DNA from: Paraburkholderia sp. Tr-20389
GTDB taxonomy: Bacteria > Pseudomonadota > Gammaproteobacteria > Burkholderiales > Burkholderiaceae
DNA: 64,000 nt
Assembly: GCF_017104565.1 (NCBI RefSeq)
Contig: NZ_JAAGPD010000040.1
Location: 49,812-113,811, forward strand
Direction: 5' to 3'
Positions 14,634 through 43,020 of this stretch are shown one piece after another (the stretch's first letter is position 1; each line of letters begins with the position of its first letter). A program made the position numbers and the translations under genes. Under the pieces are notes generated by a model. That model saw only the letters and a program-made list of their open reading frames with translations, had not been told where the DNA came from and ran no database searches.

Positions 14634-14992
14634 GCGGGCACGGATGGGTAACGCCTAACGCTGATGGTTCGGTGGCGAAATGCGGTGGTCCAGCCATCTG
14701 CCGGGTTTGCGCTCGCGAGAAGGCGGCACTTGAAGGTCTGCCGCCAGTAAGGAATGAGCCGCCGCCGATGCCAGCAGTGAAGCCCGCGAAACGTCCGTGG
14801 CAACCGGCCGACATCATGATCAACGGTCGCGTCTTGACGAGCGCTGAATCGGAATGCCTTCGCGCCGCTGTGACGTCATTCCTCGACGACATGCAGGACG
14901 ATGACGCACTGGGCAAAGACGAGCACGGTCGCCTGATGACAAAGGCATACCGCGTCGCAATGGAGCGAATTCTCTCTCTGATGCTGCCATGA
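14630..14992 (+). CDS. Hypothetical protein with N-terminal Cys motif
   Basis: 120 residues from the ATGA overlap at 14630. CGGPAICRVCAREK near the N-terminus may bind zinc; a proline-rich linker (PPPMPAVKPAKRPWQP) leads to a helical C-terminal half. Lies between the phosphoesterase and terminase genes. Family not recognised. Confidence 0.6.
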   Translation: MSGHGWVTPNADGSVAKCGGPAICRVCAREKAALEGLPPVRNEPPPMPAVKPAKRPWQPADIMINGRVLTSAESECLRAAVTSFLDDMQDDDALGKDEHGRLMTKAYRVAMERILSLMLP

Positions 14993-19288: not shown

Positions 19289-20692
19289 ATGGCGAATCTC
19301 GACAAAGCGGCGCGAGATGCCCTGCCAGACGAGCATTTCGCCGTCCCCGGCAAGCGCAAGTTGCCTATCCCTGATGCGCACCACACGCGACTGGCGTGGA
19401 CGCAGGTCGACAGGACGGAAGGATTGAGCCCGGACGAGCGACGCGTCGCCAAGGAGCGCATCAAGCGACGGGCGCACGAGTTAGGCATCAGCACGGACGA
19501 CTGGCATGTGACGGCAAGCATCGCGTTCGAGGCGATGGCGCTGGAGATGCCGACCGTCGACGGGCATCCGAACCGCAAGCCCTTCCGCGGCGTGCTGACG
19601 CGCATCGACCAGCCCTCAGATGCACCGCCTGGCGGCGCAAACGGAAAGCGCACACTGATCCCTAAAGACGTCGCCGAGTCGGCGCTGCCGTCGCTGCTTG
19701 GCATGGCGGTTGACTACACGCCTGATTTCGATGGGCACGACCGAAGAAGCAAGATTGGTCTGATTACGGGCGCCGAGATCGTCGGCAACGGGATCGAGAT
19801 CGAAGGATTTTTCTACGCAAAGGACTTCCCCAGTGAAGTCGCTGCCATCTGTGCTGAAAAGAGCGCCCTCGGGTTTAGCTACGAGTGCGACGCTCGCATC
19901 CAGGACACAGAAGCCGACGTCTGGACTTTAAGCCACTGCGTATTTACCGGCGCGGCCGTGCTCTACAAGCACCTAGCGGCCTACACCACCACATCACTGG
20001 CCGCTCAGGCCGTACAGGAACTGGAAATGACCAAGGAAGAAATGCTGGCCATTCTGGCCGAGGCCAACAAGCCCACGGCTGATGCCATCGCAGCACTGAC
20101 CACGAAGGTCAGCGAACTCGAAGCCAAGGGCGCATCGCTCGGCGGCCCGATCATCGACCAGGTGAAGCCGCACGTTGACGCGCTCAACGCTGCTGCTGAC
20201 GCAATGGAAAAGGCTGGCGTGGGTACGCACGCAACGGCTGGCCACGTTGGCGTCGTCCGCCGTGTTGCTGCGCACATGGCTGCTGCTGCTGTGTCGGGCA
20301 ACGTGCCGCAAGTCTATCGCGACCACGACTACCTGCCGAATGCATCGGTGGAAGCCGGCGCCGCGAAGACCGACAAGGCGATCGCCGATGCTGTCGCTGC
20401 CGCTCTCAAGCCGGTGACGGAGCAACTCGAAGCCGCGAACACGAAAGTGAAGGATCTGGAAGCGGCTGCGTTCAACCGCTCGGAGCAGCCGGCCCGCGCG
20501 ACGCTGTCGCCGCAGATCATGACGCTGCTCGCGAAGGGTGGTGTGAAGGTCGAAGACATGTCGGATGGCAAGAAGCTGAGCGTTGCCGAAGTCGACAAGG
20601 TTCTCGACGCGGCAGGCCTCACCGGTCAAAAGCGCATCGAAGCCAAGCTCAAGATGCGTCACGAAGGCCTGATGGTCGTCGGCCAGCGCTGA
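19289..20692 (+). CDS. Prohead protease/scaffold fusion
   Basis: 467 residues. Residues about 1-70 (LPIPDAHHTRLAWTQVDR, DERRVAKERIKRRAHELGI) match the domain often fused to phage head proteases. Residues 75-240 form a protease-like beta domain with GMAVDYTPDFDGH and EKSALGFSYECDA. From about 247 the sequence turns into Ala/Glu/Lys-rich coiled coil typical of scaffold, with a basic C-terminus (QKRIEAKLKMRHEG). A nested start at codon 247 probably makes scaffold alone. Processing of the head and self-removal are expected roles. The catalytic residues are not certain. Confidence 0.7.
   Translation: MANLDKAARDALPDEHFAVPGKRKLPIPDAHHTRLAWTQVDRTEGLSPDERRVAKERIKRRAHELGISTDDWHVTASIAFEAMALEMPTVDGHPNRKPFRGVLTRIDQPSDAPPGGANGKRTLIPKDVAESALPSLLGMAVDYTPDFDGHDRRSKIGLITGAEIVGNGIEIEGFFYAKDFPSEVAAICAEKSALGFSYECDARIQDTEADVWTLSHCVFTGAAVLYKHLAAYTTTSLAAQAVQELEMTKEEMLAILAEANKPTADAIAALTTKVSELEAKGASLGGPIIDQVKPHVDALNAAADAMEKAGVGTHATAGHVGVVRRVAAHMAAAAVSGNVPQVYRDHDYLPNASVEAGAAKTDKAIADAVAAALKPVTEQLEAANTKVKDLEAAAFNRSEQPARATLSPQIMTLLAKGGVKVEDMSDGKKLSVAEVDKVLDAAGLTGQKRIEAKLKMRHEGLMVVGQR
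20027..20692 (+). CDS. Nested in-frame scaffold protein
   Basis: ATG 20027-20029 is codon 247 of the protease gene and is preceded by AGGA at 20016-20019, a seven-base spacing. The product would be 221 residues of coiled-coil scaffold (MTKEEMLAILAEAN). Nested scaffold starts are known in lambda (C/Nu3) and Mu (I/Z). Inferred from start-site quality and domain boundary. Confidence 0.5.
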   Translation: MTKEEMLAILAEANKPTADAIAALTTKVSELEAKGASLGGPIIDQVKPHVDALNAAADAMEKAGVGTHATAGHVGVVRRVAAHMAAAAVSGNVPQVYRDHDYLPNASVEAGAAKTDKAIADAVAAALKPVTEQLEAANTKVKDLEAAAFNRSEQPARATLSPQIMTLLAKGGVKVEDMSDGKKLSVAEVDKVLDAAGLTGQKRIEAKLKMRHEGLMVVGQR

Positions 20693-34549: not shown

Positions 34550-35217
34550 TGACCACGGGATCTCAAAGCGACATCGTTGTCCGACTCCAGCAGTATTTGC
34601 CGCGCGGATGGTTTGGTGATTTCAACAACGCACCGAACATCAACGCGGTTCTCCAAGGTGCTGCGTGGGGTTTGTCCACGCAGTACGCGCTGCTGACATT
34701 CGCCGCGCTGCAAACTCGTATAGCGACTGCGACGGGCGGCTGGCTCGATCTCATATCCAACGATTTTTTTGGAACGGCACTTCCTCGCCTGCAGAACGAA
34801 TCGGACGGTGCATTTCGCGCGCGCATTCTGGCGAATCTCTTTGTGAAGGGCCCTACGCGTGGCGACATGTCGGCGGTTCTCACGCTGATTACGGGCCGCA
34901 AGCCCGACATCTTCGAGCCGAGCAACACCACGGATTCCGGCGGGTGGGATGGCGGCTTTTACTGGGACTCCGGCGTCGGTAGATGGGGCGCGCCGATGCC
35001 ATATCAGAGTCTGGTAACAGCATATAGGCCAGCGACAAGCGCCCTGTCGCTTGGCGAACTCGATTCATTCCGATGGTCGTTCGACACGTACGGCGCGTGG
35101 TCCGATTCTCCCGTTACGTCAGTCACTGACGCCGCAATCATTGCCGCCGTCGAATCCACTCGAGCCGTTGGAACCGTGGTCTGGCTACGAATCACCAACG
35201 GACCAGTGACGCCCTGA
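34549..35217 (+). CDS. Baseplate/tail protein, gpI/gp48-like (DUF2313-type)
   Basis: 222 residues from the ATG overlapping the previous stop (TGATG). VRLQQYLPRGWFGDFNNAPNINAVLQG and GGWLDLISNDFFGTALPRLQNESDGAFRARI match the tail protein that follows baseplate J. It attaches the fibre. The tail module ends with a strong UUCG terminator. Confidence 0.75.
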   Translation: MTTGSQSDIVVRLQQYLPRGWFGDFNNAPNINAVLQGAAWGLSTQYALLTFAALQTRIATATGGWLDLISNDFFGTALPRLQNESDGAFRARILANLFVKGPTRGDMSAVLTLITGRKPDIFEPSNTTDSGGWDGGFYWDSGVGRWGAPMPYQSLVTAYRPATSALSLGELDSFRWSFDTYGAWSDSPVTSVTDAAIIAAVESTRAVGTVVWLRITNGPVTP

Positions 35218-35277: not shown

Positions 35278-37050
35278 ATGGACCGCAGCACCATCTATAC
35301 GGGTGAACAGGGCCGAAGCGTTGACTTTCTGTTCGCTCAACGCGCCACGATGATTGGCCTAGGCAAGTTGGCTCAAGCTGCATTGGGCAGCAACACCATC
35401 GTCCGCGGCCTCGCCGTGACTGCGAACTCCCCCGCAGCACTCAACGTGCTCGTTGGCATTGGCGAGATCTACACGCTGACCACTGTTGACGGGACTGCAT
35501 GGGGTTCGCTGCCTGCCGATACGACGGACACGATCATCCAGCAAGGGCTGAACATGTCAGCCCAGACGATCTCGACCCCCGCTCCCGCTACCAGCGGTTA
35601 CAGCATCGTCTATCTGATCGAAGCGCAATTCGTTCAGTCCGACACCAACAGCGCTGTCTTGCCTTACTACAACAGCGCGAATCCTCAAGTTCCGCTGAAC
35701 GGCCAGGGTGGCAATGGTCAACCTCAAGCGACGCAACGCCAAGGTCTCGTCTCGATCCAGGCGAAGGCAGGCGTCGCTGCGCCTACCGGAACGCAAGTAG
35801 CGCCTTCAGTCGATGCCGGCTGGACCGCACTCGCTACCGTGACGGTAGCGAACGGCCAGTCGACGGTGACCTCGGGCAACATCGCAATCCCCGCTGGCGT
35901 CCCGCAAGTCTCGAGCCTCCTGCAGATGATGCAGACGGGCTCGTCCTCGTACGCTATCGACTCAAGCGCGAGCGCCAACACTGTCACGGTCTCACTAACG
36001 CCGCCCATCACGTCCTATGCGGACGGCCAGCCGATCAACTTTCAGGCTGCAAACACGAACACCGGCGCATGCACGATCAACGCTGGCGGCGGTAGCGTCT
36101 CGTTGACCGGCGCAAACGGCGCATTCCAGGGTGGTGAAATCGTCGCTGGCAAGTTCTATGAGGCAGTCTATCGCCAGAACTTGGGCCAAGTCGTCGTCAT
36201 CGGCCAAAGCGGCGGCGCCCTCCAAGTCTCCCCCGCCACGCAGAGCCAGCATGCTCCGCAGATGGGGCAGGTAGGAGCACTTCAGTCGGTCACGGCCACT
36301 GTTGCGTCCAATGCTCTGACGGGAACGCTCAATGCGCCTACGCCACTGTCTTTCCGAAATCCAACGTTGACTAGTGGAGTTCCTGTTTCGGCGTTTATCG
36401 CATCGAATCTGTCATTGACCGTGCCGTCTGGAGCAACGCTCGGCACCGTGTCGGGTCAGGCAGCGCGTATCGTCTGGCTGGTCGCATACAACGGCGGCAC
36501 ACCGGCGCTCTGTGTCGTGAACCTCTCGGGCGGCGTCAACCTCGACGAAACGACGCTGATCAGCACGACTTCGATCGGTGCCGGCTCGACTGCGGCGAAT
36601 GTAATCTATTCCAGCAGCGCGATCACAAGCTCACCGTTTCGCGTCGTCGGATTCTGCGACATCTCGGAAGCAACGGCAGGAACGTGGGCAACCGCTCCGA
36701 CGACCGTTCAGGGGATTGGCGGCCAAGCGCTGGCGGCGCTCAGCAGTATCGGGTACGGGCAGGCGTGGCAGAACGTCGCAGGAAGCAGATCGCTTGGCAC
36801 AACCTACTACAACACGACCGGAAAACCGATCGTCGTACACGTAAGCATTCAGTCAACCAGCACCAACGCAGGTCCGTCGGTCATAACGAGCGGACTGACA
36901 ATAGTAGGATCGTCTTCCTCGGCCGCGAATACCGTTGGCTCGATTGATGTGATTATCCCTCCTGGTAGCCCATATCAGTCAAATATGCTCGTCGGCGGCT
37001 CCGTGAATAATAGCGGAGCCACCGTTACTGGCTGGTTCGAACTTCGTTAA
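35278..37050 (+). CDS. Tail fibre protein
   Basis: 590 residues. The N-terminal third (FAQRATMIGLGKLAQAALGSNTIVRGLAVTANSPAALNVLVG) is a conserved baseplate-attachment region; the middle has the AGGGSVSLTGANGAFQGGEIVAGKFYEAVY domain shared by fibres; the C-terminal 200 residues are variable Ser/Thr/Gly-rich beta sequence that would carry receptor binding. Own transcript. Followed by an accessory gene. Confidence 0.85.
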   Translation: MDRSTIYTGEQGRSVDFLFAQRATMIGLGKLAQAALGSNTIVRGLAVTANSPAALNVLVGIGEIYTLTTVDGTAWGSLPADTTDTIIQQGLNMSAQTISTPAPATSGYSIVYLIEAQFVQSDTNSAVLPYYNSANPQVPLNGQGGNGQPQATQRQGLVSIQAKAGVAAPTGTQVAPSVDAGWTALATVTVANGQSTVTSGNIAIPAGVPQVSSLLQMMQTGSSSYAIDSSASANTVTVSLTPPITSYADGQPINFQAANTNTGACTINAGGGSVSLTGANGAFQGGEIVAGKFYEAVYRQNLGQVVVIGQSGGALQVSPATQSQHAPQMGQVGALQSVTATVASNALTGTLNAPTPLSFRNPTLTSGVPVSAFIASNLSLTVPSGATLGTVSGQAARIVWLVAYNGGTPALCVVNLSGGVNLDETTLISTTSIGAGSTAANVIYSSSAITSSPFRVVGFCDISEATAGTWATAPTTVQGIGGQALAALSSIGYGQAWQNVAGSRSLGTTYYNTTGKPIVVHVSIQSTSTNAGPSVITSGLTIVGSSSSAANTVGSIDVIIPPGSPYQSNMLVGGSVNNSGATVTGWFELR

Positions 37051-37061
37051 TTGGGTGAAGT

Positions 37062-37550
37062 ATGTCTTATACCGATCAATATTTCATTGACAAATCGGGT
37101 GGACTCCATTTTCTGTCGGCGCAAGATCAGGAAAATGCAGTTGCTCAAGGCTTATCGCTTCCTGATCCGGATTGGATGGTGGCGACGGCCGATCAGGTGG
37201 ACGCGGTCCAGAACCCACCCCTGTCCTTGCAGCAGAAGGCAGCGCAACTCTTGACTAGCGGACTGACAATCACCAGCGTGGGCACGCCATCGCTGAACGG
37301 AACGTATGCCGTCGATCAGTTGAGCCAGTCTGACATCATTGCGATCGAGACTGGCTTGAACGCAGGAAAGGGATTTCCGGGAGGCGCAACGACGTTCGGA
37401 TATCAGGATGCATCTGGCGTGGCGCATGAGTTCAGCGAAGCCAGTTTCACCGACCTAGCGGCCGCTGTGCGCGACTTCGTGTACGCGATTCGCGCAGTCA
37501 CTGCTGGTTCTTCGAGCCGCCTTCCGACGCCCACAGCTTCAATCGCATAG
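37062..37550 (+). CDS. Tail fibre accessory/assembly protein
   Basis: 162 residues. Starts DQYFIDKSGGLHFLSAQDQENAVAQGL, with a helical middle and a DUF4376-like tail (SGLTITSVGTPSLNGTYAVDQLSQSDIIAIETGLNAG, FSEASFTDLAAAVRDFVYAI). Such proteins accompany fibres as tip or chaperone. Its 3' end overlaps the convergent minus-strand gene by 53 bases. Confidence 0.65.
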   Translation: MSYTDQYFIDKSGGLHFLSAQDQENAVAQGLSLPDPDWMVATADQVDAVQNPPLSLQQKAAQLLTSGLTITSVGTPSLNGTYAVDQLSQSDIIAIETGLNAGKGFPGGATTFGYQDASGVAHEFSEASFTDLAAAVRDFVYAIRAVTAGSSSRLPTPTASIA

Positions 37551-37743
37551 CAATCTGGCCTATCTCGCGGTCTGACGGTTGCTCTGGCAGTTCGACCCAA
37601 TGCGTAACGCCGGGCGCACCCCAGTGGGGCGCCCGGATGCCGCGCGAGAATTCCTTGAACTCAGCGAGTTGAAGCTCGCCGTTTGAGATAACGGCATACA
37701 CCTTGAATGCGGTCGGCTGTTCGATAGCCGAATTCCATCTCAT
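37498..37743 (-). CDS. Hypothetical protein downstream of SGNH lipoprotein
   Basis: 81 residues. FKVYAVISNGELQLAEFKEFSRGIRAPHWGAPGVTHWVELPEQP has the compact pattern of small phage DUF proteins. Start overlaps the lipoprotein stop by 4 bases, so it is co-translated. Convergent with the fibre accessory gene. Function unknown. Confidence 0.6.
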   Translation of the reverse strand: MRWNSAIEQPTAFKVYAVISNGELQLAEFKEFSRGIRAPHWGAPGVTHWVELPEQPSDREIGQIAMRLKLWASEGGSKNQQ

Positions 37744-38483
37744 TGAAGCGACCTCACAATCGGGGTTAAGACTTCCGCCTCCCGTTGCGCTTTTATCGCG
37801 TATAGCGCGTCGTTCGGATGAATGCCATCAGTAAGCATCGTTTGCCAAAGCGGGAGCGACTGGATATAACTATACTGCTGAACGATGGGTACGTTCATCT
37901 GCGTTGCAACATAGTCCATCATCGCAACGTATGGCCGAAGATCTGGCACAGACGAATCCGTCGTCGGATTTGGCTCTTCCAGAATCGCGATTCGACCAGC
38001 AGCGCGCACCGTAGCCACCCATTGCGTCAGATATTGCCCATACTGATCCGTCGTGTAGCTTCGCGCATCGTTGATGGCGAAGTTGCAGATCCAGATTTGC
38101 GCTTGGCTGTCGATTGGCAGGAAGGCTGCGAGCGTACGGATGTAAGGCGACAGGCCATTCAAAAGTTGATACGTGTTCGTGCCTGATAGCGCATTATTTT
38201 GGACCGTGATGCTGTCATTGCCAAGCGTCGCGCGCAATTGTGCTTGCAGCATGGCTGGTGCGCTGTTCGCTGTTACGGTGCCAACGCCATTAACAGTTTC
38301 ATAGCCAGCCATCGTCGAATCGCCTTGCGCCGATATCGTCACCACATTGGGAGTGGCGGGAACCGTAGAAGCCGGTTGGACAGAAGCAGCTTGGGGTTGT
38401 GCGGTTGAGCCGCCACCCCCTCCGCATGCAGAAAGAATCATGGCGCAAATCGCACATGAGAATATCGTGGCAATCTTAAACAT
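37740..38483 (-). CDS. SGNH/GDSL hydrolase lipoprotein
   Basis: 247 residues from ATG 38483 behind GAAGGAAG. Residues 1-20 are a lipoprotein signal with lipobox LSAC (Cys20), followed by a Gly/Pro/Ala-rich tether. The SGNH blocks are complete: GDS (Ser56), Gly101 in ALSGTN, Asn138 in FAIND, and Asp219/His222 in DGIHPND. This predicts a membrane-anchored esterase or O-deacetylase facing the periplasm or cell surface. In the lysogen it could alter surface polysaccharide and block superinfection. It lies just downstream of the antirepressor gene on the same strand, so it may belong to that transcript. Confidence 0.85.
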   Translation of the reverse strand: MFKIATIFSCAICAMILSACGGGGGSTAQPQAASVQPASTVPATPNVVTISAQGDSTMAGYETVNGVGTVTANSAPAMLQAQLRATLGNDSITVQNNALSGTNTYQLLNGLSPYIRTLAAFLPIDSQAQIWICNFAINDARSYTTDQYGQYLTQWVATVRAAGRIAILEEPNPTTDSSVPDLRPYVAMMDYVATQMNVPIVQQYSYIQSLPLWQTMLTDGIHPNDALYAIKAQREAEVLTPIVRSLQ

Positions 38484-38585
38484 GATTCGGTCTTCCTTCG
38501 TCGCTATTGGATCTCTGGGCCACCGCACCCACATCGGTTGCCGCCGATCGTGAGCGCACCTGCTAAATTCGCCTTCTTCTGAGTT

Positions 38586-39353
38586 TCATGCCGCCTTCTT
38601 GGGTGGCGTGAGCGCTTCAAGCACATCCGCCGACCACTTCACTTGCGGGACCGGCGCGCCGCTTCCGTGCTTCTTGCCGGTATCGAAGATCCGTGAAAAT
38701 CTTCTGCCTGCTTCTGTCGGCTCCCACTTGTCGCCAGGTTTCGTCTGCAATCCAGCTTCAGACAGCAACAGATTCATATTCCGCGCCGACGTGCCGCATC
38801 TTCTGCCCAGTTCGGTCGGCGTGAAGTAGAGCGATTCCTGATTCGACGCCTCAATGTGCGTGCGACCCATTAGCTGAAGCACGTTCGCTCCCGAAACGGT
38901 TTGCACCGCCTGGTTCGCGCTGATCGCTGCAGCTTGTCGGTCACAGCCAATCAGCACCGCGATCTCGAAGAACGGCTGAAAGAGCCTCACTGCATCGTGA
39001 AGTTCGCCAGCCTTCGGCGTGGAATAGGAGCCCGTCTTACGGATGGCTGGCAAAACCTCGCTAGTCACCCAGCGTTTAAATCTTCTCGCTTCGTCCTTCG
39101 TGCTTCCGAGTATCAGCGCATAGAGACCCGACTCGTTGATGTGGTTGCTGGCTTGAGCGCGGCCCATTGCGTCGATGATGTCGCGTTTTGCGACGTCATC
39201 TTCATGGACATGTTTTGCGATTGCGTCGCGAGCGTTTGAATACGCCAACGCTGCGCAAACGTCGTTGGCGCAAAACCACGGCTCGCCGCTCTCATCCTTT
39301 TGGATTCTGATGGCGAATGATTCGAAGTTGAAAGGGATGATAAGATTCGTCAC
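38586..39353 (-). CDS. Bro-N/antirepressor protein
   Basis: 255 residues, GTG start behind TAAGGAAAC. Residues 10-110 are a Bro-N domain (FAIRIQKDESGEPWFCANDVCAALAYSNARDAIAKHV, DDVAKRDII, INESGLYALILGSTKDEARRFKRWVTSEVLPAIRKTG). The C-terminal domain, about 170-240 (YFTPTELGRRCGTSARNMNLLLSEAGLQTK), is KilA-C/phage antirepressor type. By family it inactivates the phage repressor. Encoded 53 bases downstream of an Arc-like gene, as ant follows arc in P22. Confidence 0.9.
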   Translation of the reverse strand: MTNLIIPFNFESFAIRIQKDESGEPWFCANDVCAALAYSNARDAIAKHVHEDDVAKRDIIDAMGRAQASNHINESGLYALILGSTKDEARRFKRWVTSEVLPAIRKTGSYSTPKAGELHDAVRLFQPFFEIAVLIGCDRQAAAISANQAVQTVSGANVLQLMGRTHIEASNQESLYFTPTELGRRCGTSARNMNLLLSEAGLQTKPGDKWEPTEAGRRFSRIFDTGKKHGSGAPVPQVKWSADVLEALTPPKKAA

Positions 39354-39406
39354 GTTGTTTCCTTAGTTGGGTTTCGACGTCAAGGCTCCGAGTGATCCGT
39401 CCAAGA

Positions 39407-39565
39407 TCAAGCGCTCGGGGCCTTTCCTTTTTCTTCAGCCTGCTTTTCCTTTATCAGCTCAATCAACTGGCCGTTCATCGACCTGTTGCGCTGCTGCGAA
39501 TACTCTTTGAACCAATCGCGGAGATCGCCAGGCATGCGCATTTGAATCTTTGCTTCGTTCTTCAT
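39407..39565 (-). CDS. Arc-like ribbon-helix-helix repressor
   Basis: 52 residues, the size of P22 Arc (53). MKNEAKIQMRMPGDLRDW, then FKEYSQQRNRSMNGQLIELI is a classic ribbon-helix-helix: a beta-strand KIQMRMP, helix A and helix B. The start is fixed by AGAAGGAG seven bases upstream. Missing from simple longer-ORF searches because it is short. It shares an operon with the antirepressor and should repress it. Confidence 0.85.
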   Translation of the reverse strand: MKNEAKIQMRMPGDLRDWFKEYSQQRNRSMNGQLIELIKEKQAEEKGKAPSA

Positions 39566-39582
39566 CGGTGCTCCTTCTGCCC

Positions 39583-39633
39583 TCAAATCTGAGGCAGTGG
39601 TTGTGAGTATAGGGTGCCATCAAATCTGAGGCA
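39583..39633. promoter_or_regulatory. Paired operators between the divergent Arc- and Mnt-like genes
   Basis: TCAAATCTGAGGCA occurs at 39583-39596 and 39620-39633. The first copy is part of the palindrome CCTCA-AATC-TGAGG (39581-39594). The second overlaps the -35 of the leftward promoter, the first lies just downstream of its start point. Confidence 0.7.
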
Positions 39634-39634
39634 A
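39606..39634 (-). promoter_or_regulatory. Leftward promoter of the arc-like/antirepressor operon
   Basis: On the minus strand TTGCCT (39634-39629), 17-bp spacer, TATACT (39611-39606). Near-consensus, flanked by both operator copies. Confidence 0.7.
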
Positions 39635-39641
39635 GCAGTTT

Positions 39642-39672
39642 TTGCCATTTTTTTGAAGGCAGGCGGTACAAT
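39642..39672 (+). promoter_or_regulatory. Rightward promoter of the Mnt-like gene
   Basis: TTGCCA (39642-39647), 19-bp spacer, TACAAT (39667-39672). The -10 sits inside the palindrome GGCGG-N7-CCGCC (39662-39678), and the expected start point falls at or next to ATG 39679. Confidence 0.45.
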
Positions 39673-39678
39673 GCCGCC

Positions 39679-40131
39679 ATGGCAAAGCAAGACGACTACA
39701 CGAAAACGGCGCTCCGACTACCGCGCGAGCTTCACCAGAAGCTTACGGACGCGGCGTCAGAGCGCGGGCACTCCTTGAACACGGAGATGGTCTACCGGCT
39801 CGGCGCATCCTTCGATGGCGGCGAAGACTCCGATCGGCAAATCGAAATCAATGCCATCCTGAAAGGGTTACGGGACACGATTGCTGAGGTGGCTCGAAAC
39901 GACAACGAGCGTGACGATGCTGTTCGTGCAATGGGGCGCGATCTGCATCTGCTCTGTCGTGAGGCGATGCCCCTAATCGATGATGAGCACCAGTTATTGA
40001 ATGTTTTGCATATGCTGGCCGCCGTTGGCGCTGCAATGCAGGCGGGCGACATCACGGATGCACAGGGCCAGTTGAGAGCGCTGTACTACCTAGCCTCAAA
40101 AATCGCCGCGATCAAACCAGCAAACGAATAA
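39679..40131 (+). CDS. Mnt/Arc-family ribbon-helix-helix regulator
   Basis: 150 residues. The first 45 (DYTKTALRLPRELHQKLTDAASERGHSLNTEMVYRLGASF) are the Arc/Mnt DNA-binding fold; the remaining 100 are helical and acidic and probably give tetramerisation. Divergent from the Arc-like gene, which reproduces the mnt-arc-ant arrangement of P22 immI. Likely the lysogenic keeper of the antirepressor operon. Followed by two terminators. Confidence 0.85.
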   Translation: MAKQDDYTKTALRLPRELHQKLTDAASERGHSLNTEMVYRLGASFDGGEDSDRQIEINAILKGLRDTIAEVARNDNERDDAVRAMGRDLHLLCREAMPLIDDEHQLLNVLHMLAAVGAAMQAGDITDAQGQLRALYYLASKIAAIKPANE

Positions 40132-40133
40132 CG

Positions 40134-40159
40134 AAGCCGCCCAAAGAGGCGGCTTTTTT
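40134..40159 (+). terminator. First of two tandem terminators
   Basis: AAGCCGCC, loop CAAAGA, GGCGGCTT with six T. Immediately follows the Mnt-like gene stop. Confidence 0.8.
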
Positions 40160-40171
40160 ACGACCACTACC

Positions 40172-40193
40172 AACCGCCTACGGGCGGTTTTTT
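40172..40193 (+). terminator. Second tandem terminator
   Basis: AACCGCC, loop TACG, GGCGGTT and further T, then CATTTCTCCGGGG ahead of the holin-like gene. The pair insulates the lysis genes from the regulator. Confidence 0.75.
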
Positions 40194-40224
40194 CATTTCT
40201 CCGGGGCTACTTTTGGAACAAGAC

Positions 40225-40548
40225 ATGATCTCCATGCCCGATGACGACTTCAGAAAGCACGTCGTCGATCGACTCAACGCCCAGGATGCAGCGATTCAGG
40301 AAAACACAACGCTCACAAAGAGCATCGCTGCCGACACCGCATTCATGCGCGAGGCATGGAAAGACGGCATCGCGACGGTGCGGTTTTTCTGTCGACTCGC
40401 CGCGGCGTGGCGGTTTCTGTTGAAACAGGTTGTCGTGCCGGTTGGCCTGCCTGCGACGTTCATCTACGCACTGGTCTACTACTCCAGCCACGGCCACATG
40501 CCTGACTGGCTCGAATCCGGATACAAGCTACTGAAGGTCTTGCTATGA
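40225..40548 (+). CDS. Holin-like membrane protein
   Basis: 107 residues from ATG 40225 (GGAA eight bases upstream); ATG 40234 and TTG 40213 are alternatives. Charged N-terminal half (DDDFRKHVVDRLNAQDAAIQENT) and one or two hydrophobic segments at about 58-91 (FFCRLAAAWRFLLKQVVVPVGLPATFIYALVYY). It overlaps the endolysin gene (ATGA), the usual holin position. Confidence 0.7.
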   Translation: MISMPDDDFRKHVVDRLNAQDAAIQENTTLTKSIAADTAFMREAWKDGIATVRFFCRLAAAWRFLLKQVVVPVGLPATFIYALVYYSSHGHMPDWLESGYKLLKVLL

Positions 40549-41643: not shown

Positions 41644-43020
41644 ATGACTGTAGTCGTAGTCAATACGCCTGGTCCGCAAGGGGCTCCGGGCGCACAGGGC
41701 GTTCCCGGTCCGCAAGGTGCGCCCGGCACGAACGGCACCAATGGAACGAATGGGGCTCCGGGCGCTACAGGCGCGACTGGCCCACAAGGACTTCAAGGGC
41801 CGCGCGGCGACACGCGACGTATCACAGGTCAGCGCTGTTACTTCGATGCACCGAGCGGTCAGGCTCAAGGTCCGACCCAAGGCAACATCAAAATTGGCGT
41901 GACCATTCCTGCTGGTGCGACCGATCTGCAGGTTGTTCTGTCGAATGCGTGGGGCAGCGAAACCGCGCCAGGCACGAACACGATCACGTATTCGGGCTAT
42001 TGGGAATATCCGGCTGGCACCTTCACGCAGATCACGTGGGCTGGCGCGACGTCGGTAACTATCGCTGTCGCGGCGCAAGTGACCAGCGACGCTGCGACGA
42101 ATCTCGTTGTGCCTCCTGGCGCATCTGCGAACCTTCGCCTGTTCATTACGTGTCCTGCGGGTGGCGTGTTCCCGTATGCAATGTACGCGGCTGATACCGG
42201 TTGCGGCTATATCGAAGACACGGGCGCGACGGGCAATCAATCGAATAACGCATCGTTCACGTATCCGCAGCCCAACGCGTATATGCCTTCGCCGACTGCG
42301 ATCATCGGCGTTCCGTTGCTGCCGGTGAAGTCGTTTGCGTTCCTCGGCGATTCCATCACGCGCGGCACTGGCGATGGTCAAGACGGAGGCTGGGCTATCC
42401 GGATGCTCGGCGGTGGTCAATCGACTACGCATAGCTACGTCAACCTTGGCGTCGGCGGCGAACTCGCAACGACGGGCTTTATCCCGCATCACGGTTTGCG
42501 TCGTGGTGGATACAAATTCGCCGATGTGATCTGCACGAACTACGGCACGAACGACATTTTCTCGCGCGCGCAGACGTTCGTTCAGATGCAGGCCAATCTG
42601 ATCGCGTCCTGGTGGGCGATGGCGGGCACTGGCGCAGATGTCTATCAAGGCACGCTGCTGCCGCGCACGTCGTCAACCGATGGCTGGAGTTCTCCGGGCG
42701 GTCAGACGCCGATCGCCGGTTTCGAGCCGGGCGGGACGCGCTCGCAACTCAACGCATGGATTCGCGCCGGCGCGCCGATGGTGAATGGCGTTGGCGTTGC
42801 CGTGGGCACGTCAGGCGCTGTCGTCGCAGGACAGGCTATGCATCCGCTCAAAGGCTATTTTGAAATGGGCGATGCAGTCGAAACCGTACGTGATTCTGGG
42901 CTCTGGAAGACAACCGGCAGCGTCAACGGCTGGACGTCAGATGGCATCCATCCAGGCGGTCTGAACGGCCAGGGCGCTGCGGCAATCGCAACTCTCGCAG
43001 CGACGTTCCTGCCGGTCTGA
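41644..43020 (+). CDS. Collagen-like repeat protein with SGNH hydrolase domain
   Basis: 458 residues. Residues about 9-55 are about 15 Gly-X-Y triplets (GPQGAPGAQGVPGPQGAPG), then a beta jelly-roll-like domain about 60-190, then an SGNH hydrolase: GDSITRG (Ser237), LGVGGE, YGTNDI and DGIHPGG (Asp433/His436). Collagen-like stalks trimerise phage fibres, so this is probably a virion-displayed esterase that deacetylates host surface glycan, or a released receptor-modifying enzyme. Located after the endolysin rather than by the main fibre, as for cargo genes. Confidence 0.85.
   Translation: MTVVVVNTPGPQGAPGAQGVPGPQGAPGTNGTNGTNGAPGATGATGPQGLQGPRGDTRRITGQRCYFDAPSGQAQGPTQGNIKIGVTIPAGATDLQVVLSNAWGSETAPGTNTITYSGYWEYPAGTFTQITWAGATSVTIAVAAQVTSDAATNLVVPPGASANLRLFITCPAGGVFPYAMYAADTGCGYIEDTGATGNQSNNASFTYPQPNAYMPSPTAIIGVPLLPVKSFAFLGDSITRGTGDGQDGGWAIRMLGGGQSTTHSYVNLGVGGELATTGFIPHHGLRRGGYKFADVICTNYGTNDIFSRAQTFVQMQANLIASWWAMAGTGADVYQGTLLPRTSSTDGWSSPGGQTPIAGFEPGGTRSQLNAWIRAGAPMVNGVGVAVGTSGAVVAGQAMHPLKGYFEMGDAVETVRDSGLWKTTGSVNGWTSDGIHPGGLNGQGAAAIATLAATFLPV

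Follow-up and report, generated by a model that had tools for sequence, protein, structure and literature searches.

Genes of the module

The window, as we call the whole 64,000-nucleotide stretch of Paraburkholderia sp. Tr-20389 DNA that was analyzed, contains a phage region that combines a lambdoid early part with a contractile tail. Pfam and PHROGs searches recognized an S24 repressor, a P-like helicase loader, NinG, terminase, portal, tail sheath, baseplate and endolysin genes. The baseplate genes end at position 35217. A first-pass annotation of the DNA placed a regulatory module just after the tail fiber genes; the late position stands, but the open reading frames that follow the baseplate genes, 35278–37050 (PHROGs of unknown function) and 37062–37550 (no match), are tail fiber candidates by position only. 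Between 37550 and the endolysin gene (40545) are found a GDSL lipase gene, the module and a 111-residue ORF, and a tail-fiber-like esterase is encoded beyond the endolysin gene at 41644–43020.

The module comprises three genes. A 52-residue Arc-like RHH repressor (39407–39565, minus strand) is the first of a leftward pair. Directly behind it, on the same strand, lies the gene of a 255-residue antirepressor, counted from a GTG start (38586–39353), with a Bro-N domain at its N-terminus. The gene of a 150-residue Mnt-like RHH regulator (39679–40131, plus strand) diverges from this tandem. The 52- and 150-residue regulators match the Pfam Arc family (PF03869) with E values of 5.1e-5 and 5.4e-7 and scores of 23.5 and 29.8 bits, respectively, both above the curated cut-off of 20.4. 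The Bro-N domain scores 90.2 bits (E value 1.3e-25; curated cut-off 25.6), and the protein matches the PHROG anti-repressor Ant at 1e-52. The ORFs and the Pfam and PHROGs assignments thus reproduce the arrangement described in the first-pass annotation, a leftward pair of Arc-like and Bro-type genes divergent from an Mnt/Arc-family regulator. Even the best matches to the sequences of solved structures are weak, with E values of 0.035 for the 52-residue protein with Mnt and 0.089 for the 150-residue protein with an Arc construct. AlphaFold models of the two regulators, proposed at first as a check on their assignment, have mean pLDDT values of 65.0 and 61.1; they support nothing and were too weak for use as structure-search queries. 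The 52-residue ORF looks like a real gene, because six relatives keep it with 63–75% identity and because the differences among its five copies of equal length fall unevenly on codon positions 1, 2 and 3 (0.15, 0.16 and 0.36).

Putative operators and promoters between the divergent genes

The gap between the divergent genes is 113 bp long, as first annotated (39566–39678). The 14-mer TCAAATCTGAGGCA had been reported to occur in it twice, and the exact copies, at 39583 and 39620, are the only ones in the 9.0-Mb genome; looser matches in the window are about as frequent as expected by chance (6 with three or fewer mismatches, 4.76 expected). This 14-mer belongs to a longer inverted repeat of 19 bp, TGCC-N11-GGCA, and of this the gap contains three copies rather than two. 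These putative operators were assigned on the minus strand. O1 (39578–39596) lies between the leftward −10 element and the Arc-like gene, O2 (39615–39633) covers the −35 element and spacer of the leftward promoter, and O3 (39643–39661), which had been overlooked, lies over the expected −35 region of the rightward promoter. When 2000 dinucleotide shuffles of the gap were searched for YGCC-N11-GGCR, not one contained three sites. Outside the gap, the window has another three copies of TGCC-N11-GGCA, at 19548, 54179 and 62922.

The leftward arc-ant promoter (39606–39634, minus strand) reads TTGCCT-17-TATACT. It carries 9 of the 12 consensus bases with its −35 element inside the upstream TCAAATCTGAGGCA copy, in agreement with the near-consensus promoter annotated earlier, and TATACT is kept in all seven loci of the window type described below. 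The likely −10 element of the 150-residue gene is TACAAT (39667–39672, plus strand), which is present as ATTGTA in all seven gaps, 6–7 bases from the start codon. Since only 6 bases separate it from the ATG in the window, the mRNA of this gene may be leaderless. A second inverted repeat, GGCGG-N7-CCGCC (39662–39678, plus strand), is evident in the sequence across this −10 element.

Loci of the window type

Protein and pattern searches identified six relatives of the window's module, on the viral contigs L011, L012, L039, L040 and L045 and in L046, a genome of the same family. The pattern matched 2 of 398 genomes, the window's own included. As five loci had gone into its making, its independent finds are limited to L045 and L046, each of which carries both regulators. 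Two further viral contigs, L035 and L036, matched the 19-mer alone; neither regulator is present in them and the matches were taken as chance. No relative of the 52-residue protein was found in the viral-contig scan that used this protein as the query, and a scan of genome contigs with the Bro protein returned two distant relatives only. The closest relatives of the Bro protein in 119 related genomes, L022 and L023, were set aside, as inspection by eye found no 52-residue relative among the adjoining ORFs.

All seven loci contain the three sites, and in each of them none of 2000 shuffles reached three. The spacing is nearly constant, 27–28 bp from O3 to O2 and 36–37 bp from O2 to O1, and the mean identity of the site columns is 0.93 (42 of 57 invariant) compared with 0.64 outside the sites (18 of 68). 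One site of L040 reads CGCC...GGCG, a paired change. The center of O3, CAAAAA, differs from the centers of O1 and O2 in every locus, and O3 may therefore belong to another reader. In L045 the distance from O3 to the −10 element of the Mnt-like gene is longer by about 10 bases, close to one helical turn, and a different inverted repeat with GCGCGC arms takes the place of the GGCGG repeat there.

The leftward promoter, both regulators and the three sites are common to the seven loci; what varies is the type of antirepressor. Pfam assigns Bro-N to the window and L011, pRha and ANT to L039, KilA-N and ANT to L040 and L046, and ORF6N to L045. The antirepressor of L012 was placed by its 80% sequence identity to the window's protein. 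L039, L040, L045 and L046 have one or two additional small ORFs in between, and in L040, L045 and L046 the alignment of the Mnt-like protein with that of the window is confined to the N-terminal RHH part. Antirepressors exchanged behind an unchanging switch would offer a clear example of modular evolution in phages.

Divergent Arc-family pairs beyond the window type

Profile searches returned 26 of 397 genomes of the phylum at an E value of 1e-7, and 11 of 370 of the class and 19 of 300 of the order at 1e-9; each of these counts includes the genome of the window. The 62 loci obtained in this way and 11 others gave 73 loci with 36 divergent pairs, reduced to 31 by dropping five duplicates: the seven of the window type, P22 and 23 others. 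Within a pair, the Mnt-like role was given to the longer protein, and start codons were assigned by rule. Each gap was then searched for three alike 15-mers and compared with 400 shuffles, a triple being called clear at no more than 2 of 400.

Clear triples were found in 17 of the 23 further pairs, or 16 of 22 when the near-identical L117 and L119 are counted as one, and their site sequence usually differs from that of the window. The remaining six gave 20 (L062), 14 (L106), 12 (L108), 27 (L115), 120 (L116) and 260 (L123) of 400. Six of the seven window-type gaps reached the level; L039 gave 10 of 400 although all three palindromes are present. Of 150 random 105-bp segments used as a control with 100 shuffles each, 2 scored 0 and 6 scored 1 or less. 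The isolate phages SPN3UB, Oslo and KP12 each gave 0 of 400, and JLK-2012, in which the Mnt-side gene of the stretch is unannotated, and Edno5 were borderline with 13 and 32. P22 and two near-identical gaps of its type fall short of the 17, with 86 of 400 for epsilon34, 33 for P22 and 15 for UPF_BP1. With the annotated arc start, the P22 gap gave 35 of 300 and 33 of 400; in the joint run on the 31 pairs it was taken with the late arc start. ON470605, OL539469, Sf101, ST64T and ST160 were left out, as no arc gene is annotated beside mnt in them. With the three-site plan so frequent in the further pairs, P22 may not be representative of such switches.

A divergent pair is likewise present, with three copies of sites of other sequence, at the distant loci L041 and L042 and in the phage Pkon1. 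The query that led to L041 and L042 was a peptide from the start of the window protein, so their shared first residues are partly a result of selection. A pattern scan for the second site type returned only the contig of L042, already known, and missed L041. The flank behind the Arc-like gene was examined in 12 further loci (L041, L042, L057 and nine of ten fetched stretches). Seven of them contain a Pfam antirepressor-type domain there; inspection of the other five by eye recognized none.

The likely reader of the sites

The base-contacting residues of RHH proteins, which we take to be those at Arc positions 9, 11 and 13, were compared in 24 pairs, with the window standing for its seven and L119 dropped as near-identical to L117. 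Positions 9 and 11 agree within pairs in 22 of 48 cases, where 7.99 are expected (0 of 20000 permutations). Similarity between sites was compared among the 17 of these loci that have clear triples. It is higher for loci with the same Mnt-like residues, 8.31 versus 7.07 (15 locus pairs; 0 of 5000 permutations, kinship ignored), and shows no rise for loci with the same Arc-like residues, 7.08 versus 7.21 (8 locus pairs; p 0.64, kinship ignored). Mean similarity is 8.24 when the Mnt-like residues are the same and the Arc-like residues differ (13 locus pairs) and 6.53 in the reverse case (6 locus pairs). L112 has the Mnt-like residues KAR of the window and different Arc-like residues, and its sites carry the window's TGCC half-site.

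From these comparisons of residues and sites, it is more likely the Mnt-like protein that reads the three sites. The recognition strand of the Arc-like protein is similar, and some of the sites are probably bound by this protein as well. A division of the sites as in P22, by which the Arc-like protein would own O2 (and O1), the repeats being Arc operators, and the Mnt-like protein would own another element, for instance the GGCGG-N7-CCGCC repeat or O3, appears unlikely. O2 does lie at about the position of P22 Oarc and the core of O3 does stand apart from those of O1 and O2 in all seven loci, but the site sequence tracks the recognition residues of the Mnt-like and not of the Arc-like protein, and L112 shares only the former with the window, yet keeps TGCC. 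The GGCGG repeat itself points both ways: its two arms are altered together in L012 (GACGG/CCGTC), which speaks for this division, whereas no such repeat over the −10 element was found in L039 or L040. Matched recognition residues and operators in these pairs form a natural series, in which an RHH recognition code, and the choice between shared and split operators, are directly testable.

Comparison with P22 immI and other switches

P22 immI is the standard textbook example of a second lysogeny switch and a model for RHH repressors, and the first-pass annotation had equated the module with its mnt-arc-ant layout. The likeness holds for the gene order, with the antirepressor behind arc in a divergent Mnt/Arc pair, for the protein families, for the geometry of promoter and operators, and for the late-region position, which in P22 is beside the tailspike gene. 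In the P22 record, the centers of Oarc (14798–14818) and Omnt (14822–14844) fall at about +1 and +26 relative to the promoter spacer's midpoint. The corresponding values in all seven window-type loci are −4 for O2 and +32 to +33 for O1. Among the 17 further pairs with clear triples, the middle site lies no more than 7 bp from the best-scoring promoter's midpoint in 13, and in 12 the next site is also 22 to 33 bp downstream; the exceptions are L042, L060, L112 and L118, together with L057, whose next site is at +12. Two of these positions are thus also occupied in P22, but by operators of different sequence, and a third copy is lacking.

The likeness does not extend to the number and sequence of the operators or to the kind of antirepressor. 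The two P22 operators differ in sequence, whereas the window repeats one sequence three times, and the P22 antirepressor consists of P22_AR_N and P22_AR_C, not Bro-N. P22 also encodes the sar RNA in the arc-ant interval; a scan of 39300–40250 with a simple consensus, which also missed the promoter of the 150-residue gene, found no rightward, sar-like promoter. In view of the operators and the antirepressor, the module would work like immI, on a plan of shared operators, without being of the P22 type. The P22 mnt gene (L048, 4520–4771; NC_002371) is labelled "partition protein ATPase" in RefSeq, as is PHROG 795; on an RHH repressor such a label has the look of an annotation error that was passed on.

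For P22-like phages, PMC2629481 describes an ant moron, a variable insertion in the late operon that often bears an antirepressor, with ten types in sixteen phages. In the moron so described arc or mnt is often missing, whereas the window type keeps both regulators and three sites and varies the antirepressor. Paracoccus phage vB_PkoS_Pkon1 (MK291442) is closer in plan, with an annotated divergent Arc-like pair, a KilA-N gene behind the shorter member and three like sites in the gap; its site sequence and antirepressor family are different and its proteins are distant.

In phage lambda, the right operator OR, read by CI and Cro, consists of three like operators that lie between two divergent regulator genes. 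The window shares this plan, with O3 deviating in its center, but its regulators are RHH and not helix-turn-helix proteins and its output is an antirepressor. We tentatively suggest, as somewhat short of an even chance, that the divergent pairs are a widespread RHH counterpart of lambda OR, in which paralogous repressors compete for three locus-specific operators and the antirepressor output is exchangeable. P22 immI would then be a divergent case that split the specificities and lost the third site. A search of openly licensed PubMed Central papers, PMC8022706, PMC2629481, PMC7549136 and PMC2701414 among them, found no description of three shared operators in such a module.

Proposed switch and its presumed target

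The features of the DNA taken together suggest that the locus is probably a second lysogeny control module, P22 immI-like in action, with the Mnt-like protein on three shared sites. In a lysogen, the 150-residue Mnt-like protein, made from a probably leaderless transcript, would occupy O1 and O2 and silence the arc-ant promoter, and through O3 it would restrain its own. On entry of phage DNA into a cell that contains no Mnt-like protein, the leftward promoter would fire, and the Arc-like protein and the antirepressor would be produced together. The antirepressor would block the main repressor. The Arc-like protein would then turn off the operon, probably through some of the sites that the Mnt-like protein uses, and the antirepressor would therefore come as a pulse.

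The presumed target is an S24-type phage repressor (828–1592, minus strand; Pfam Peptidase_S24 3.7e-15, Phage_CI_repr 5.3e-5), encoded in the same phage region as the module. Its GDSM motif is retained (residue 166). The linker contains neither an Ala-Gly nor a Cys-Gly pair, and the only one in the protein comes after the motif, at residue 175, which may hint, and is only a hint, that the repressor cleaves itself poorly and hence would need an antirepressor. Among the six related records, the S24 search found one protein in that of L039 and two in the L046 genome, on a contig other than that of the module; it found none in the other four, three of which are only 26–34 kb long. The absences would fit an antirepressor that acts on the repressors of other prophages and not on its own S24 protein, the module being an inter-prophage weapon or signal, but the short length of the three records weakens the point. 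Exchange of antirepressors behind a constant switch is expected if targets vary in this way, and equally so if the antirepressor must match a changing repressor of its own phage, and we consider an action on other prophages improbable. That the locus is a toxin-antitoxin-like pair, made of an RHH antitoxin and a harmful Bro-family protein, is very hard to credit: the 150-residue protein does match HicB with 20.5 bits, just below the cut-off of 21, and repressor-antirepressor pairs are discussed among toxin-antitoxin-like gene pairs in PMC2701414, but Pfam and PHROGs found no toxin domain in the operon, the sole above-cut-off match beside the RHH gene being Bro-N, PHROGs class the Bro protein as an antirepressor, and other antirepressor types occupy the same place in the related loci.

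Genes beside the antirepressor

The N- and C-terminal parts of the window's Bro protein match two neighboring antirepressors of Bordetella phage IFTN3 separately (L033, 5001–6548), a pattern of sequence matches that suggests domain shuffling. The genes beside the antirepressor vary as well. In the window a GDSL lipase is assigned by Pfam (37740–38534), and, by eye only, the neighbors are glycosyltransferase-like in L011 (7914–8930) and acyltransferase-like in L012 (7753–9015); these genes look like surface-changing morons. Similar-looking proteins of about 230–320 residues with signal-peptide-like starts, also recognized by eye, adjoin the antirepressor in four loci: L011 (7066–7824), L012 (7067–7795), L039 (3346–4299) and L045 (2510–3199).
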